A stretch of 55,357 nucleotides of DNA from Candidatus Coatesiibacteriota bacterium. Lineage in GTDB: Bacteria; RBG-13-66-14; B26-G2; WVWN01; G020348885. Positions 144 through 21,314 of the stretch are shown here, in pieces (the first letter of the stretch is position 1; every line of letters begins with the position of its first letter). Where the stretch lies: positions 527,658 to 583,014 of the forward strand of contig CP070755.1 in the NCBI GenBank assembly GCA_020348885.1. Reading direction: 5' to 3'. Position numbers and translations under genes: made by a program. The notes beneath the pieces are model-generated. The model was not told the DNA's origin, searched no databases, and saw only the letters and a list, made by a program, of their open reading frames with translations.

Positions 144-3100
144 ATGGCTACGCACGATAACAGTTTCTATTTTACGGTTTTAATAGTGGCATTCGTTGCC
201 GTTACATTAACTTCGGCAGAGGAAGACTATTTAGACGCGACCAGAGTGTTACTACATTACAACAGAGAATACCCTGACGTTTTAGAGTACGGTCTTTACC
301 AAGTACAACGTGCCGACGGGGAGGTCGAGGAGGATTATATACAAGGGCGTCATTGCGTACATTTAAAACCCGATTCCCTTTACATGTACTTCGACGTTGA
401 CGAGACCTATATACCGTACACGATAGACGACGTCGATTATAACTGTAATGACGTCTTCGTTACCGTTATAGTAAATAATCAGAACGATGTAGGGGAAGAT
501 TTATACGTCAAACTTGAATACGATGCTCCCGGCCCTGGAGGAGATTTCTTACCTACCGAAAGAATGTTCGAAGTATCGACACGTGATGTCTATGATCCAG
601 ATTTCCCTCTAGAGAGCCGTTGGCGTAAACTTACCTTCTGCTTACCCTTGGTCGAGTTCCAGAACGGGCAATACGGCGTGGCGGATTTTCGGTTGGTACC
701 GACGCCGGCCGCGCCCGGCGCCGACATCGAGGAACTGTACGTTATGTCGGTGTCCGTTTCGAGGTGTATGGGAGGGTATACCTCGCCGATTTACGACGAT
801 TTCGCTGCGGAAATAGAATCCTTCGAAGACGAAGAAATGTTGATATGTTCTGTGCTCATCTACTGGTACAACGTAAACACCGGGTGGCATATTACGGAGG
901 ATGGTTGTGCTATGTCTACGCATCCGTCCCTTCGCGGCGCCCCGTACATCATACAAGTAGAAGGTTGTACCGAATACCTGTTCCCCAGCGACTTCAGTTA
1001 CAAAGAGGTCGGGTACTGGAAGAGGGAACTCCAGTACATGGAAGACGCCGGTATAGATATCGCTATGATAGACTACTGGGGGTTTACCAAAGACCAGTTT
1101 ATTGACCAGTCCCCGGAAGACCCCGACGGCTTCCAGATAGGTCTAAGGAACATCGTCATAGCGCGGGAGGAACTGGTCTCGGAAAACAAAAACCCGCCCA
1201 AGTTATGTTTGCTTTATGACACTCCCGCTGTCCGTATCGAAAGGGCCTTGAAAATACGTGAAGCACCCTTAAATGTATCGGGCGAATTCTCCGCTGGTCC
1301 GTATACGCAAACCGAGGTTGACAGCCAGATATTCGCGAAATACGTACGCGATTATTTCTCGATAGTCCCGCCTTCCCATTGGGCCGCCGTCGACGGGGAA
1401 CCTATAGTATTCATATTTAAACCTGGACCTGACACATTACCCAACGTCGTGGGTTGCGAACCATCTTTCTTCCCGTTCCTGGAAGATAAGTTCGCGTATA
1501 ATTTCGACGATATTGAACCGTACCTTATAATGTCCTCAGGATGGTATGAAAGTTTTTTCGAAGAACAACAGGAAATATACTGGGACGAAACCTTCGTCTG
1601 GTGCTACGGATTACCCAGGCCGACAGTATTTTGCTACGGCCCGGGAGAGCCGGGTCAACCGAAAGCGAAAGAACCCGGGAAAGTGGCAGAGTTTACCCCC
1701 GGCTTCGACGCGAGGGGGTTCGGCTATCCCGGAGATCCTTATTTCCCGAGAGAACACGGTAATGCGTTCGCCCGCAACTGGTACAGGGCGATCAAGCAGA
1801 GCCGGGGCAGCCGGTTTTTCGTGGCCGAAACCTGGAATCTCCACTTCAAGGAAGGTACGTCGGTCAGCCCCAGCCAGGAATTCGAAAGCGACCCCGCTTC
1901 CGGATATAGCGGCGACGACGACCTTCTATACATGTATATTAACGAGAAGTACGTCAACCGTCTAAAAAAAGGCGTGAAGTACGTGGTATGCGCCCCTCAC
2001 TTCAACAGCGGAGACCTACTTAATTACGATATCGATACTTGGATCGAAGCTCCTTATGACTTAAGGGTGTACGACCCGGTTACGAAAAATATCGTATGGG
2101 AAGTGGAAGACCTTTTCTATCCACCCAGTAAATCGACACCCGTTACGAATGACACCGTTTATCACGACCGAACCGATGCGATTTTACCGGCCGATAGCAA
2201 CCTTCCGTCGACCGACGTAAGGCGTGACATAAGGTGTATTGGAAGCGTAAAAAGTCGAGAAGAAATCGCTACCGAATTCGGGATGAACTTATGCTGCGGT
2301 GACTTTAACGGCGACGGCTTCGACGACATCGCGGTGGCTATGGGCCCGGCGCCGAATATAGCCACCCAGCATTGGTTGAAAGTCTTGGATTTAGGAAACC
2401 CTACGCCTAAATGCGAAATCTGGACGCCGTTCGGTAACCTGACCCACGGTTTGAATATCGCCGCCGGCGATATCGACGGCGACGGCGTAGACGAAATCGT
2501 CGTAACGCCCGGGCCCACCGACCAGGACGACTCGGGTTTGATAACCGCTTACGATTTCCCTGTTTTCCACGACCCCTATAATAATTGGGACCCCGTACAG
2601 ATTATCGACCCGCCTTACGATATCGAAGACGATTGGCCCGGGTCCGAAACGGTAAACGGCGGTTTGAACGTCGCGTGCGGAGACGCCGATTGTAAGACGA
2701 TTGATGAATATGAAGACCCCTTTCCAGACTACGATATTGAAATGAATAACGACGAAATAGTAGTCGCCCCGGGGTTCGGGTCGACGTTAAATAGATACGT
2801 TCGATTTTACTATTACGATCCATTTACCGACGAGCTCAAGGAACACGATCTCGGAAATATACCTATATTCTCGGATACGGGGGGGATGCGGGTAGACTGC
2901 GCTGATATCTTAAAAGACGACCAGTTTAACGTGGGAAAAGAAGAGGTGATCTGCGGCGAATACCCCGAGTACCGTTCTTATCCTGACAACAACGACCCGA
3001 TAATAAGGGCGTGGACCTGGGGTATACCGGGCGGATACGAATGCAGGTGGGAAAAAGAGGTAGATTATGGCGGTTCGGATTGTCCGTACGGCGTAAACGT

Positions 3101-3653
3101 CAGCGCAATAGATTACAGAGGTAACGGTTATTACGAGGTCCTTTACGGGAATACGTGGAGCGCTCTGGGCCCTTTATTGTATCCGGTGGGTTGTTCGGAA
3201 ATGAGTATGTGCGACCCATTAGATAATATCTCGCCGCCCTGGGAATGGACCATTGACCCCGTCTACTACCCCAGATTACCAGTAAACGTCGCCGCCGGGG
3301 TGTTTAATGGGAGTATTATACTGGATTTACGTGGAGACGTTATTGAAGAGGTAAAAAGGAGATTAGATAAACCGTTAGATACGCCGCATATCTCTAAACC
3401 CGCCCCTAATCCCGTTACCGGCGGCGAGATACGTTTCGATTACAGTAATCCGGGGCACGAAGCCGTAGAATTGACGATTTACGATATAAAAGGCCGGAAG
3501 GTCTATTCAAACACCCTGGACAAGCCCGGCGAAACCGGTTCCTTCGTCGTAAACTTCGCTGAAAACGGGATATCTTTAACTCCCGGGGTGTATATTTTCT
3601 GTTGCGATATAGGTATTACCCGTAATACGGGGAGATTCGTCTATTTACGGTAG
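144..3653 (+). CDS. Secreted GH99/DUF5010-like glycosidase with FG-GAP repeats and T9SS-type C-terminus
   Basis: Large secreted protein of 1,169 residues. An N-terminal hydrophobic segment (about residues 8-25) looks like a signal peptide. Residues 30-210 look like a beta-rich, possibly carbohydrate-binding module. Residues 230-640 resemble the TIM-barrel DUF5010/GH99-like group: MIDYWGF, a PPKLCLLYDT strand and an AETWN motif followed by EGT. Residues 710-1050 hold FG-GAP-type calcium-loop repeats such as DFNGDGFDD and DIDGDGVDE. The last 80 residues (APNP, then LTIYDIKGRKV, then LTPGVYIF) match the T9SS type A sorting domain, so export to the cell surface is likely. Early codons are AT-richer than in neighbouring genes. 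The enzymatic role is an inference; no substrate can be named. Confidence 0.7.
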   Translation: MATHDNSFYFTVLIVAFVAVTLTSAEEDYLDATRVLLHYNREYPDVLEYGLYQVQRADGEVEEDYIQGRHCVHLKPDSLYMYFDVDETYIPYTIDDVDYNCNDVFVTVIVNNQNDVGEDLYVKLEYDAPGPGGDFLPTERMFEVSTRDVYDPDFPLESRWRKLTFCLPLVEFQNGQYGVADFRLVPTPAAPGADIEELYVMSVSVSRCMGGYTSPIYDDFAAEIESFEDEEMLICSVLIYWYNVNTGWHITEDGCAMSTHPSLRGAPYIIQVEGCTEYLFPSDFSYKEVGYWKRELQYMEDAGIDIAMIDYWGFTKDQFIDQSPEDPDGFQIGLRNIVIAREELVSENKNPPKLCLLYDTPAVRIERALKIREAPLNVSGEFSAGPYTQTEVDSQIFAKYVRDYFSIVPPSHWAAVDGEPIVFIFKPGPDTLPNVVGCEPSFFPFLEDKFAYNFDDIEPYLIMSSGWYESFFEEQQEIYWDETFVWCYGLPRPTVFCYGPGEPGQPKAKEPGKVAEFTPGFDARGFGYPGDPYFPREHGNAFARNWYRAIKQSRGSRFFVAETWNLHFKEGTSVSPSQEFESDPASGYSGDDDLLYMYINEKYVNRLKKGVKYVVCAPHFNSGDLLNYDIDTWIEAPYDLRVYDPVTKNIVWEVEDLFYPPSKSTPVTNDTVYHDRTDAILPADSNLPSTDVRRDIRCIGSVKSREEIATEFGMNLCCGDFNGDGFDDIAVAMGPAPNIATQHWLKVLDLGNPTPKCEIWTPFGNLTHGLNIAAGDIDGDGVDEIVVTPGPTDQDDSGLITAYDFPVFHDPYNNWDPVQIIDPPYDIEDDWPGSETVNGGLNVACGDADCKTIDEYEDPFPDYDIEMNNDEIVVAPGFGSTLNRYVRFYYYDPFTDELKEHDLGNIPIFSDTGGMRVDCADILKDDQFNVGKEEVICGEYPEYRSYPDNNDPIIRAWTWGIPGGYECRWEKEVDYGGSDCPYGVNVSAIDYRGNGYYEVLYGNTWSALGPLLYPVGCSEMSMCDPLDNISPPWEWTIDPVYYPRLPVNVAAGVFNGSIILDLRGDVIEEVKRRLDKPLDTPHISKPAPNPVTGGEIRFDYSNPGHEAVELTIYDIKGRKVYSNTLDKPGETGSFVVNFAENGISLTPGVYIFCCDIGITRNTGRFVYLR

Positions 3654-16864: not shown

Positions 16865-16919
16865 CGTAGTAATAGGTTTTAAGTACCGTTAATATTTACC
16901 TTCAAGGATGGAACGAACT

Positions 16920-17831
16920 ATGAGACGTATTAACGTTTTACTAGTTATTATCGCGACCGCTTTTTTTGTAACGTCCGCCGGCGCGACCGACTGGCTCTGG
17001 CAGGTTACGACGGACCCGGAGGATGATTACGACTCTACGTGGTCGCCCGACGGTACTACGCTTGCCTTCCAATCGAATCGTAGCGGTAACGCGGACATCT
17101 GGACGATTCCTGCGGCCGGTGGGGCGGTTACCCAAATAACCACGGACCCGTCGTCCGATGCGTGGCCTGCGTGGTCGCCCGACGGTACTACGCTTGCCTT
17201 CAACTCGTACCGCAGCGGCAACTGGGACATCTGGACGATTCCCGCGGCCGGAGGGGCGGCGACGCGAATAACCACGGACCCGTCCGAAGATAAGTACCCT
17301 GCGTGGTCGCCCGACGGTACTGCGCTTGCCTTCATGTCGGACCGCGGCGGCAACGGGGACATCTGGAGGATTCCTGCGGCTGGTGGGGCGGCTACCCAAA
17401 TAACCACGGACCCGTCGGCCGATGCGTGGCCTGCGTGGTCGCCCGACGGTGCGAGTATCGCCTTCGGCTCCTTCCGAAGCGGCAACTGGGACATCTGGAC
17501 GATTCCTGCTGGCGGTGGGACTGCGACGCAGATAACGACGGACCCGGCGTACGATATAAATCCTGCGTGGTCGCCAGACGGGACTACGATAGCGTTTACC
17601 TCAGGCCGTAGCGGCAATTACGACATTTGGACGATCCCTACGGCCGGCGGGCTGGCGACACAAATAACCACAGATCCGGCGTACGATGAGGGTCCTGCGT
17701 GGTCGCCCGACGGGTTCGCGATATCCTTTGACTCGGACCGCAGCGGCAACTACGACATATGGGTTATAAAACCGGACCACACGTCGGTCGCACCCGCGTC
17801 CCTCGGCGAGATTAAAGCGACGTTCAGGTAG
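16920..17831 (+). CDS. Secreted TolB/PD40-type beta-propeller protein with shared C-terminal box
   Basis: 303 residues. The ATG at 16920 is preferred because AAGG at 16904-16907 is well spaced for it, while the in-frame ATG at 16908 directly abuts that site. Signal peptide ends near SAGA. The rest is six 44-residue PD40 blades starting at bases 17040, 17172, 17304, 17436, 17568 and 17700, each with WSPDG, AF-S-R-GN-DIW and ITTDP. Such propellers bind partners or glycans in the periplasm or at the surface. The protein ends SLGEIKATFR, a tail also seen on two other secreted propellers nearby. Function unknown. Confidence 0.85.
   Translation: MRRINVLLVIIATAFFVTSAGATDWLWQVTTDPEDDYDSTWSPDGTTLAFQSNRSGNADIWTIPAAGGAVTQITTDPSSDAWPAWSPDGTTLAFNSYRSGNWDIWTIPAAGGAATRITTDPSEDKYPAWSPDGTALAFMSDRGGNGDIWRIPAAGGAATQITTDPSADAWPAWSPDGASIAFGSFRSGNWDIWTIPAGGGTATQITTDPAYDINPAWSPDGTTIAFTSGRSGNYDIWTIPTAGGLATQITTDPAYDEGPAWSPDGFAISFDSDRSGNYDIWVIKPDHTSVAPASLGEIKATFR
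17040..17831 (+). repeat. Six tandem 132-base units encoding propeller blades
   Basis: In-phase 132-base repeats inside the propeller gene. The first four units share long identical stretches (for example GTGGTCGCCCGACGGT), which points to recent expansion or gene conversion; the last unit is diverged at its 3' end. Confidence 0.85.
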
Positions 17832-17990
17832 TTCGTCAAAATTAACGTTCGGGTAACGGCCCGCGGCGATTCCGCGGCGTCGAGGCGTTCGTATATACCA
17901 GCTTCCCAGCCAGGTAAATACGCCCTTCCCGTGTTCATGTCAGAAACGATTACCGCCTTGAAATAGATACTCGTATATTCTATACTCCGT

Positions 17991-18017
17991 CCGCTTGTCG
18001 AGAGCGGTTTTTATTAT
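17991..18017 (+). terminator. Probable terminator between propeller gene and serS
   Basis: CCGCT and AGCGG arms around a 7-base loop, followed by TTTTTATTAT. The stem is short (5 bp). It lies 31 bases before the serS GTG start, so it should end transcripts from the propeller gene, or could act in the serS leader. Confidence 0.5.
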
Positions 18018-18047
18018 AGGCATATAACCCATTTCATACGACCACCT

Positions 18048-19316
18048 GTGCTAGACGTAAAGTTCATAGTGGAAAACGAGGCCGCCGTCCGGCGGATGCT
18101 CGCCGAACGCGGCGCCGAGGCCGACGTGGATGGAATCCTCGCGCTGGCCGAGAAACGCCGCAAACTCGTCTTCGAGACCGACGAGAAGCGGGCCGAGCAG
18201 AACCGGGCGAGCGAAGCCATCGCCGAATCGAAGAAGGCCGGGGAGGACACGACCGAGGCCGTCGCCGAGATGAAGGCGCTGGCCGCCGAAGTGAAGGAGC
18301 TAGGCGCGGGTGTTTCGGAGCTGGAAGCGGAGCTTCACGAGAAACTCCTCGAAGTCCCGAATATACTACACGAGTCGGTGCCGCCGGGCGAGACGCCCGA
18401 GGATAACGAGTTAGTCCGCAGTTGGGGCGACCCGCCGAAGTTCGGGTTCCCGGCGCGGGCCCATTACGACCTGGGCGAGATGCTGGGCATCCTGGACGTG
18501 GAGCGGGCGGCCCGGGTCGCGGGGTCCCGGTTCGCGATGACCGTAGGCGCCGGCGCCCGGCTCGAGCGGGCCCTATTGAGCTTCTTCCTCGACGAGGCGT
18601 CCGCCGCCGGCTACACCGAGGTCTTCGCCCCGTTCCTCGTCAACTCGGCGGCCATGACGGGAACCGGCCAGCTCCCCAAGTTCGGTTTCGACATGTACGG
18701 GGTTGACGGCGAAGACCTGTGGCTTAACCCGACCGGCGAGGTACCTATTACTAACCTTCACGCCGGCGAGATACTAGACGGCGAACGCTTACCTCTCAAG
18801 TACGCAGGGTACACAGCCTGCTTCCGGCGGGAGGCCGGCGCACACGGCCGGGACACCCGCGGGATGATGCGGGTCCACCAGTTCAACAAAGTCGAGCTCG
18901 TCAAGATCACCGACGCCGAAAGCTCTTACGACGAACTCGAGTCCCTGACTGCCGACGCCGAGCGGTTGCTCTGTAAAATCGGGTTACCGCACCGGGTAGT
19001 AACGCTCTGCGCCGGCGACCTGGGCTTCGGCGCCGCCAAAACCTACGACGTCGAGGTATGGATACCGAGCGAAGAGACCTACCGGGAGATATCGAGCTGC
19101 ACCAACTACGAGGAGTTCCAGGCCCGCCGGCTACAGGCACGGTGGCGCAACCCGCGAACGGGCAAACCCGAGCTGGTCCACACGCTGAACGGGTCCGGTC
19201 TCGCGATCGGGCGTTGCGTTATCGCGATACTGGAAAACTTTCAGAACGCCGACGGGTCGGTTAAGATACCGGAAGCCCTCATACCTTACATGGGTGGGAT
19301 GAAGCGGATAGAGTAA
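18048..19316 (+). CDS. serS: Seryl-tRNA synthetase
   Basis: 422-residue class II aminoacyl-tRNA synthetase that charges tRNA-Ser (and tRNA-Sec). GTG start; the product [22 protein letters not shown] matches the family N-terminus. Residues 1-105 form the long antiparallel coiled-coil arm that contacts the tRNA long variable arm. The catalytic core has motif 2 ([20 protein letters not shown]) and motif 3 ([17 protein letters not shown]). Length is normal. Codons are more GC-rich than in the neighbouring propeller genes, as is common for highly expressed genes. It stands alone between secreted-protein genes. Confidence 0.97.
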
Positions 19317-19375
19317 GGGCGCGGTCCGAAGAAAGCCGCGCTAATCGCGATGCTAGTTTCAAGTTGGAAGCAGTG

Positions 19376-19397
19376 CCCCGAACCGGATGGTTCGGGG
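19376..19397 (-). terminator. Hairpin between converging serS and propeller gene
   Basis: Perfect 8-bp stem CCCCGAAC/GTTCGGGG with a 6-base loop, ending right at the stop codon of the minus-strand gene. No long T run follows on either strand, so termination may be weak or factor-assisted. Confidence 0.5.
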
Positions 19398-20231
19398 TTA
19401 GTTATACGACGCCTTTACCTGGCCAAAAGAGGTCGGGGTGACGGCGTTGTAGTAACAAACGCGCCAGAGGTCCGCGCTTCCAAAGCCACCGGGACGGTTT
19501 GAGTCGAAATACATCGCTCGTCCGTCCGAGGTCCAGCTGGGATAACCCTCGTTAGAGGAGGTGTTTACATCGGGGCCAAGATTTTGGGGGGTGGAGAAAT
19601 TTGTTCCTTCCCCTTGAGCTCGCCAGATGTCGCTTCCCCCGAGTCCACCAACGCGGTTACTTGCGAACCAGAGGTAACCGTCATGGTAGCAGGTGGGCGA
19701 ACCGTCACCGACACCCGTCAGTTGGACGTTAACCCAGTTTCCGGATACCTTTTCTGCGGTATAGATTATACCTTCACGGGCGAAGTAGATCCGGTTGCCA
19801 TTGCTGGAAAGGCAACAGCCATGCTCTTTAGCCGAGGTGTTTACGTTGGGTCCTAAGTTCTGTGGTGTTTCCCATGAGGAACCGTTCCAGTGAGAGACGA
19901 ACAGGTCCGCCCCGCCGTATCCACCATGATCAGCCGACGTAAAATACAAATCGTTGCGAACCTCGTCCCAGAAGGGATGTTCGGAACCGGGCTCGTTGAT
20001 GGGCGAGGGGAGTTCCTGGGGTATTGTCCAACTTCCGCCGACACACTCGGAAACGAAGATTTTACCGATGGTGTTGCGGGTGCTGACGAAGAAAATCTTG
20101 TTGCCCGCTCCGTCAATGGAGCTTTGGAAGTCCCACGCTGTACCGTTAGGAGGGTTACCGAGGTTTTGGGGGTCTCCCCAGCCAAAAGCCGAAGTAGCTA
20201 ACAAAAGCGTTATTGCCACTAACTTTTTCAT
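19398..20231 (-). CDS. Secreted PD40-like beta-propeller protein (paralogue 1)
   Basis: 277 residues with a short signal peptide (LLLATSAFG). WD40-like PD40 blades are recognised by DGRAMYFDSNRPGGFGSADLW, GGYGGADLFVS and GGLGGSDIW. It is a clear paralogue of the next gene upstream: both start with NLG-PPN-TAW-FQ, share INEPG/INNPG-PFWD and end in a TSDG-FxSNR-GG-G-DL blade. The chain ends TSFGQVKASYN, a version of the box found on all three propellers in this region. Probably surface or periplasmic; role unknown. Confidence 0.8.
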   Translation of the reverse strand: MKKLVAITLLLATSAFGWGDPQNLGNPPNGTAWDFQSSIDGAGNKIFFVSTRNTIGKIFVSECVGGSWTIPQELPSPINEPGSEHPFWDEVRNDLYFTSADHGGYGGADLFVSHWNGSSWETPQNLGPNVNTSAKEHGCCLSSNGNRIYFAREGIIYTAEKVSGNWVNVQLTGVGDGSPTCYHDGYLWFASNRVGGLGGSDIWRAQGEGTNFSTPQNLGPDVNTSSNEGYPSWTSDGRAMYFDSNRPGGFGSADLWRVCYYNAVTPTSFGQVKASYN

Positions 20232-20288
20232 TTTTGTACCTCTGAAACGTTTATGTTGAAGTTTTGATTTTCTTGCCCTAATATTAAT

Positions 20289-20317
20289 AGCTTAGCATGT
20301 TCTAGTAAATGGGTCAA
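20289..20317 (-). promoter_or_regulatory. Promoter of propeller paralogue 1
   Basis: On the minus strand TTGACC (20317-20312), 17 bases, TAAGCT (20294-20289). It gives the 19398-20231 gene its own promoter despite the upstream paralogue on the same strand. Confidence 0.5.
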
Positions 20318-20357
20318 GAGTGATAATTTGTCTATACTCAATTCCGGCAAGCAAGTA

Positions 20358-20375
20358 ACCTGCCTACCGGCAGGT
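20358..20375. repeat. REP-like hairpin ACCTGCC-TACC-GGCAGGT
   Basis: Perfect 7-bp stem with a 4-base loop in the gap between the two propeller paralogues. No T run follows, so it does not look like a terminator. A single copy was noticed; small hairpins of this sequence type are common as dispersed repeats in bacterial genomes. Confidence 0.4.
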
Positions 20376-20492
20376 AAGAAGGTTAAAGGGATAGGTAATA
20401 AGTAATGATTATCAGTTATCTCTTGTACCTTTAAGAAAGAAGGGTAAGAAAAAACCCCCGCTTTTAAGCAAAGGGCTAGGATTCGGAGGTTG

Positions 20493-21314
20493 TTAGCGGA
20501 AGAGAGCTTTGACTTGACCGAGAGACGTAGCCTCTACTGCGGTCTCGGTGTAGCGGGCCCAATAGAGGTCTACTGCTCCATGTCCACCGGACCTGTTGGA
20601 ATAGAAGAATAGGTATTTCCCGTCGGAGGTCCAAGTGGGGCTTCCGTCATTGGCGTAAGTGTTTATCTCCGGACCAAGATTTACGGGAGCGTTAAAACTT
20701 GTTTCTGAACCCTGGGCTTTCCAACAGTCAGTACCGCCTTGTCCTCCACCACGGTTATCGTAGAAGTAGAGGTAACCGTTATGGTAGGAAGAAGCGTACC
20801 CACTGCCGATACCAGTTGCCTGGGAATCTGTCCAGGTACTACCGCTTTTGAAGGCGACGTAGATGATCCCTTCGCGGCTAAAATAGAGATAGTCGCCGGC
20901 GACAACCGGCGCGCGTTCCTGATCGGAAGTGTTGATATCGGAGCCGACGCTTGTTCGCTCGGACCAATTATTCCCCCCAAGCCACGTCGAGTAGTAGATG
21001 TTACTACCGCTTACGAAGTAAAGCCGGTTATTATCGTCGTCCCAGAATGGATAGGTCGCGCCGGGATTGTTGATCTGAGAGGGAAGCGCAACGGGTATTG
21101 ACCAGCTGCTGCCGTTCTTCTCGGTGACGTAAATTTTCCCGTCGTCCCTGATGAAAAATAATTTATCGCCGTCGTCATCCACAGAGCCTTGGAATTCCCA
21201 GGCCGTGGAATTCGGCGGAGAACCGAGATTGTTCACCCAGGCCCAGTCGGCATTCGTAAGCACGGCCGAGATGGAGAACGACAGGATAGCGACGATAATG
21301 ACGGTGATTCTCAC
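20493..21314 (-). CDS. Secreted PD40-like beta-propeller protein (paralogue 2)
   Basis: 273 residues; the start MRITVIIVAILSFSISAVLTNA is a signal peptide. Blades include DDDGDKLFFIRDDGKIYV, YFYDNRGGGQGGTDCW and LFFYSNRSGGHGAVDLY. It aligns over its full length with the downstream paralogue, so the pair arose by tandem duplication. It ends TSLGQVKALFR, nearly identical to the tails of the other two propellers. A weak hairpin with a T run follows on the minus strand near 20450-20480. Confidence 0.8.
   Translation of the reverse strand: MRITVIIVAILSFSISAVLTNADWAWVNNLGSPPNSTAWEFQGSVDDDGDKLFFIRDDGKIYVTEKNGSSWSIPVALPSQINNPGATYPFWDDDNNRLYFVSGSNIYYSTWLGGNNWSERTSVGSDINTSDQERAPVVAGDYLYFSREGIIYVAFKSGSTWTDSQATGIGSGYASSYHNGYLYFYDNRGGGQGGTDCWKAQGSETSFNAPVNLGPEINTYANDGSPTWTSDGKYLFFYSNRSGGHGAVDLYWARYTETAVEATSLGQVKALFR

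Follow-up and report, generated by a model that had tools for sequence, protein, structure and literature searches.

A short C-terminal tag on exported proteins of Candidatus Coatesbacteria, with a possible link to type IX secretion

Three secreted propellers with a common tail

The stretch of DNA analysed here (the window; 55,357 nucleotides) belongs to a genome of 2.6 Mb on a single contig, and it holds three genes for Sec-exported β-propellers whose chains finish in much the same way. On the plus strand, the ORF at 16920–17831 encodes a PD40/TolB-like propeller (PD40 with E=1.4e-68, plus a TolB-like match) that ends ...TSVAPASLGEIKATFR, its start lying either at 16908, as in the longest ORF, or at 16920, at the Met before MRRINVLLVII. 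The other two, both on the minus strand and recognized by ORF and profile match, are a propeller with a PorE/OmpA-type PD40 region at 19398–20231, ending ...VTPTSFGQVKASYN, and another at 20493–21314, ending ...VEATSLGQVKALFR. These latter two proteins are 49% identical, while the first joins them only via a broad single-linkage cluster of PD40 propellers. As read from the ORFs and from the genome-wide pattern matches, the tails and their stop codons occupy positions 17799–17831 (plus strand), 19398–19430 and 20493–20525 (both minus strand), and the ends that a sequence-only reading of this DNA had reported for them, namely SLGEIKATFR, SFGQVKASYN, and SLGQVKALFR, are all present exactly. That reading also held the tail to be conserved apart from the propeller. 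Here, the claim stands insofar as the tail recurs on 17 further protein clusters, though the three window proteins themselves share the one broad propeller cluster.

In structural models of the window proteins, each built from a shallow alignment, the tail is placed outside the propeller and modelled with some of the lowest confidence in the chain, with pLDDT values below 50 for the 16920–17831 protein and of about 32–46 for the 20493–21314 protein. As a point of contrast, the gene at 144–3653 (plus strand) encodes a protein with no tag and with a C-terminal type A sorting domain of the type IX secretion system (T9SS), matched by TIGR04183 at E=1.2e-4 and 21.9 bits (cut-off 23). This large, secreted protein with its weak type A C-terminal domain (CTD) ends GRFVYLR, unlike most CTDs of the genome, which are of the KKMVV type.

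Terminal placement and conservation of the motif

A strict DNA pattern, G-x-[IV]-K-[AGSTR]-x-[FY]-[RKHNQS]-stop, was run over the whole genome with the reversed pattern as control. Because this returned 57 matches against none for the control, the likeness of the three window tails is not due to chance, and the same tail is far commoner than was first noted. With the stop codon dropped, there were 67 matches (control, 6), 57 of them terminal, whereas a looser pattern gave 86 (control, 9) and puts the number of tagged proteins in the genome at about 80. The resulting consensus is [IV]-x-P-[AST]-S-[LFWV]-G-x-[IV]-K-[AGST]-x-[FY]-[RKHNQ]-stop, covering some 10–16 residues.

For detailed protein analysis, about 444 kb around the tag sites were taken, with stretches around CTD sites used as well. 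The 64 distinct tails in this set give the logo [TS]-[SN]-[IV]-x-P-[AST]-S-[LFV]-G-x-[IVL]-K-[A/T/G/S]-x-[FY]-[RKH], in which Ser at −10 and Gly at −8 are kept in 63 of 64, and Pro at −12 and Ala at −4 each in 52 of 64, with conservation limited to the last 16 residues. The constancy of Lys at −5 and of the aromatic residue at −2 is partly imposed, since both were demanded by the search pattern. A 16-column scoring matrix places all tagged C-termini at 27.7 bits or more, while among the untagged ones in the stretches taken there are four near-misses at 17–32 bits (for instance, PTSLGRSKAIFR and PASLGRVKSSFM) and all others fall below −3. Off the strict terminus, the matrix found only two matches, each within 13 residues of an end. 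Given this separation and the scarcity of non-terminal matches, the tail motif is discrete and terminal.

None of the 65 tails examined contains a transmembrane segment: over 19 residues, none has a Kyte-Doolittle mean as high as 1.6. We also considered an amphipathic helix and rejected it: no helix is claimed because the helical moment does not improve on that of same-residue shuffles and is exceeded by the β-type moment. The latter, taken at 170 degrees, averages 0.61 in the tails against 0.32 in untagged C-termini, and the alternating pattern thus favours an added β-strand over a helix as the predicted conformation. No Pfam (E≤1e-3) or NCBIfam (E≤0.1) family covers the tail in the 64 tagged proteins scanned, and we found no description of the motif, or of such a signal in these phyla, in the literature.

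Carrier proteins and their gene neighbours

Once the signal peptide and tail are cut off, 65 carriers fall into 18 clusters with no BLAST-detectable link between them, so the tail extends well beyond direct paralogues. By Pfam and NCBIfam, the families include PD40 propellers, CBM96/DNRLRE, Big_5, choice-of-anchor J, GDSL, Omp28-like, and cleaved-adhesin proteins, together with unknowns; among these, choice-of-anchor J was named by NCBI for its variable anchors. By a simple heuristic, a signal peptide is present in 56 of 66 carriers as against 118 of 401 other ORFs (Fisher p ~1e-17), which bears out the enrichment on exported proteins that had been expected of a signal. This heuristic is crude, as is the greedy gene calling, but several of the failing carriers have masked, truncated, or lysine-free N-termini.

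The suggestion that a peptidase or export gene might accompany the tag fared less well, as no dedicated peptidase, no recurrent exporter, and no candidate intramembrane sortase or protease was found among the scanned gene neighbours of the tagged genes. The sole recurring family there is that of the T9SS CTD proteins, which are also the most frequent among the nearest untagged neighbours (6 of 59). At about 511 kb and 1395 kb of the contig (loci L040 and L055), a T9SS-CTD gene is followed by a gene for a tagged protein of 199 residues; the two pairs are on opposite strands, and the two tagged proteins have identical termini and length, as though a CTD-plus-tag cassette had been duplicated. Elsewhere, at 1077855–1096407 (locus L049), four or more tagged proteins are encoded in tandem, and their local tail dialect, ASLGEIKAGYH, indicates that neighbouring copies share tail sub-variants.

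Distribution, dialects, and co-occurrence with SprA

All 14 Candidatus Coatesbacteria genomes examined carry the tag, with 51–86 matches per genome in the sister family, 10–16 in other families of the class, and 1–9 in the other class of the phylum, where Trp often replaces Leu. An initial set of 23 genomes from other phyla gave only four matches against about seven for the control. In a wider sample of 103 genomes of other families, the tag is present in 12, of which five have 26, 15, 12, 5, and 2 matches and seven a single one (controls, 0–1). The tagged proteins outside the phylum are secreted as well, with ends such as ...SSWGRIKALYR, and the form seen is the Trp variant [ST]WGx[IV]KxxFR. 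As the tag thus occurs in other T9SS-bearing lineages, its earlier description as a signal 'of this lineage' is too narrow. Similar tails may also occur in uncultured phyla of the FCB group, such as Eisenbacteria and WOR-3, which we take as a lead.

Each genome has its own dialect. The source genome often has Glu at −7 and Thr, Met, or Leu at −3, while G003 has Arg or Lys at −7 and Leu at −3 (G-[RK]-V-K-A-L), and G002, of the same class, has His, Asn, Gln, or Lys at −1. Similarly, G106 always has Trp at −9 and mostly Ile at −6 (WGxIKALYR), and G136 combines Trp, Ile, Leu, and Arg (WGAIK[TS]LFR). Such dialects would fit a common signal drifting in step with a single receptor, with descent among paralogues contributing too.

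SprA and type A CTDs are likewise found in all 14 genomes of the phylum, with about 67 such CTDs in the source genome, these being on proteins other than the tagged ones. The tagged proteins have both a Sec signal peptide and a C-terminal signal, and their genome encodes SprA, a combination that is the general description of T9SS cargo. Outside the phylum, where we counted as SprA-positive any genome with a SprA match above its cut-off, the tag is in 10 of 23 SprA-positive genomes and in 2 of 80 others, both with single matches (Fisher p ~2e-6, a value confounded by kinship), and two or more tags occur in 5 of 23 against 0 of 80. A search for a swap of CTD for tag within one family gave only three weak alignments between tagged proteins and the sampled CTD proteins. 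Taken as a whole, the sequence data offer moderate evidence for a link between the tag and the T9SS, and the co-occurrence with SprA may reflect common ancestry.

A single-copy FN3-like carrier

Several of the tag-bearing genomes outside the phylum have only one or two tags, and in four of these the carrier examined proved to be a secreted FN3-like protein of 130–148 residues ending TWGSIKA[ML]FR. Among 386 genomes searched, its full-length orthologues are found in 19, from roughly 15 families and always in single copy; as a family, they have 130–150 residues and end TWGSIKA[MLI]FR. On average, the body of these orthologues is 26% identical and the tail 88%, the exceptions being one that runs a few residues past the tag and one that reads TWGSIKALLK. 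The four members scanned have no NCBIfam match and no Pfam match above the cut-off, and a PDB search with the protein returned nothing significant. In three families (3 of the 19 neighbourhoods), porD lies beside the gene or one gene away, PorD being a subunit of the SprA extended translocon (PMC10994853), and in two families a PorV/PorQ-family gene is near. Other neighbourhoods include an M23 peptidase (five), an rpoD-like sigma factor (three), and BamD or a BamD-like protein (three).

Comparison with known C-terminal signals

T9SS signals described to date comprise type A, B, and C domains (PMC10202324). Like the tag, the type A CTD (TIGR04183/PF18962) is C-terminal, occurs in the same genomes on Sec-exported proteins of many families, and carries a near-invariant Lys close to the C-terminus (PMC10994853), which the Lys at −5 of the tag recalls. 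However, the type A CTD is a folded β-sandwich of about 70 residues with motifs A–E, GxY, and a conserved basic motif E, and in the source genome mostly ends ...GVYVYKLxAGxxSAxKKMVV. The tag lacks GxY, and none of the 64 tagged proteins matches TIGR04183 or PF18962 (NCBIfam E≤0.1, Pfam E≤1e-3), there being no detectable similarity between tag and CTD; the tail is thus both shorter than and unlike the T9SS domain, as the sequence-only reading had it. The short CTDs of Prevotella intermedia are also shortened C-terminal signals in a T9SS context, though at 40–55 residues, with motifs B, D, and E and three predicted β-strands (PMC11969387), they differ from a tag of 10–16 residues. The PEP-CTERM, GlyGly-CTERM, and MYXO-CTERM signals likewise are short C-terminal homologies that many exported proteins of one genome share without being related, each type being paired with a sorting machine (PMC3237569, PMC11980579). 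Yet they are tripartite (a motif, a transmembrane helix, and a basic end) and processed in the membrane, whereas the tag has no transmembrane segment. We would therefore place the tag within a known kind, the C-terminal sorting signal, as a previously undescribed form, with strong evidence for its being a signal and moderate evidence for its T9SS link.

Interpretation

That the tail is a discrete C-terminal tag on exported proteins of different families, and a signal distinct from the T9SS domain, is strongly supported by its terminal position, its association with signal peptides, and its occurrence in no fewer than 18 clusters. Since about 80 mostly unrelated exported proteins bear it, and other T9SS-bearing lineages have it as well, it has the look of an address label, not described before, for proteins that are secreted or displayed on the cell surface. 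We consider the chances about even that it is a compact sorting or docking peptide read by a conserved outer-membrane machinery, most likely T9SS-linked, with a putative receptor. Somewhat more tentatively, it may be an outer-membrane secretion or surface-docking signal of 10–16 residues, read by T9SS-type machinery in parallel to the CTD in several mostly uncultured lineages, with the old single-copy carrier maybe a part of that machinery. By such a mechanism, Sec would export the carrier, whose tail would then project from the folded domain; a conserved receptor belonging to T9SS-type envelope machinery would bind it, either within the periplasm or at the outer membrane. Candidates for this are the SprA translocon, PorV/PorQ-type shuttle barrels, or their periplasmic subunits, and the alternating [IV]-K-A-x-[FY]-R would suit a short β-strand added to a receptor sheet. 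The receptor would move or dock the carrier at the cell surface, and the tag would serve a further group of proteins, mostly of smaller size, in the way that the 70-residue CTD serves its own.

The most serious competitor, though we find it rather unlikely, is that the tag docks to a non-T9SS envelope receptor, be this a surface lattice, an outer-membrane lipoprotein, or a peptidoglycan-associated protein, with the SprA link being shared ancestry only. In keeping with this, 13 of the 23 SprA-positive genomes outside the phylum are without a tag under the pattern used, no cleavage motif is apparent in the tag, and the M23 enzyme near five of the FN3-like genes is a murein peptidase. Against it stand the presence of SprA in almost all tag-bearing genomes and the location of the FN3-like gene near porD and PorV/PorQ-family genes in several lineages. 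We judge it improbable that the tag imitates an outer-membrane β-signal, with alternating hydrophobics and a near-terminal aromatic, recruiting soluble proteins to the BAM complex. The β-type moment and the nearby BamD-like genes noted above would agree with that, but the carriers are propellers and other soluble domains, the final tag residue is basic rather than aromatic, and the tag is rare, whereas BAM is, to our knowledge, near-universal in diderms.

Equally slim is the prospect of a processing signal that a peptidase of its own would cut off, with the invariant Lys as a possible site, in the manner of exosortase-type or PorU-type signals. The strictly C-terminal placement and the conserved (if partly pattern-imposed) Lys at −5 speak for it, and PorU is known to cleave T9SS CTDs (PMC10202324), but the 65 tails have neither a transmembrane segment nor a basic anchor, no peptidase family recurs beside tagged genes, and the Lys may instead serve binding. 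We see hardly any likelihood that the tail has no signal value and is simply left over from gene duplication or belongs to a fold that the carriers share. While some carriers are tandem paralogues (for instance, at L049 and L069), the number of clusters left after tail removal, the divergence of orthologue bodies beside near-constant tails, the many families involved, and the low-confidence modelling of the tail outside the fold all argue otherwise.

Returning to the address label, if the proposed reading is true, the tag predicts where dozens of hypothetical proteins per genome end up in phyla without a cultured model, and reveals a second address code besides the T9SS CTD. It would also supply a minimal peptide for finding the receptor, for which the single-copy FN3-like carrier, found in 19 genomes, is a direct experimental handle.
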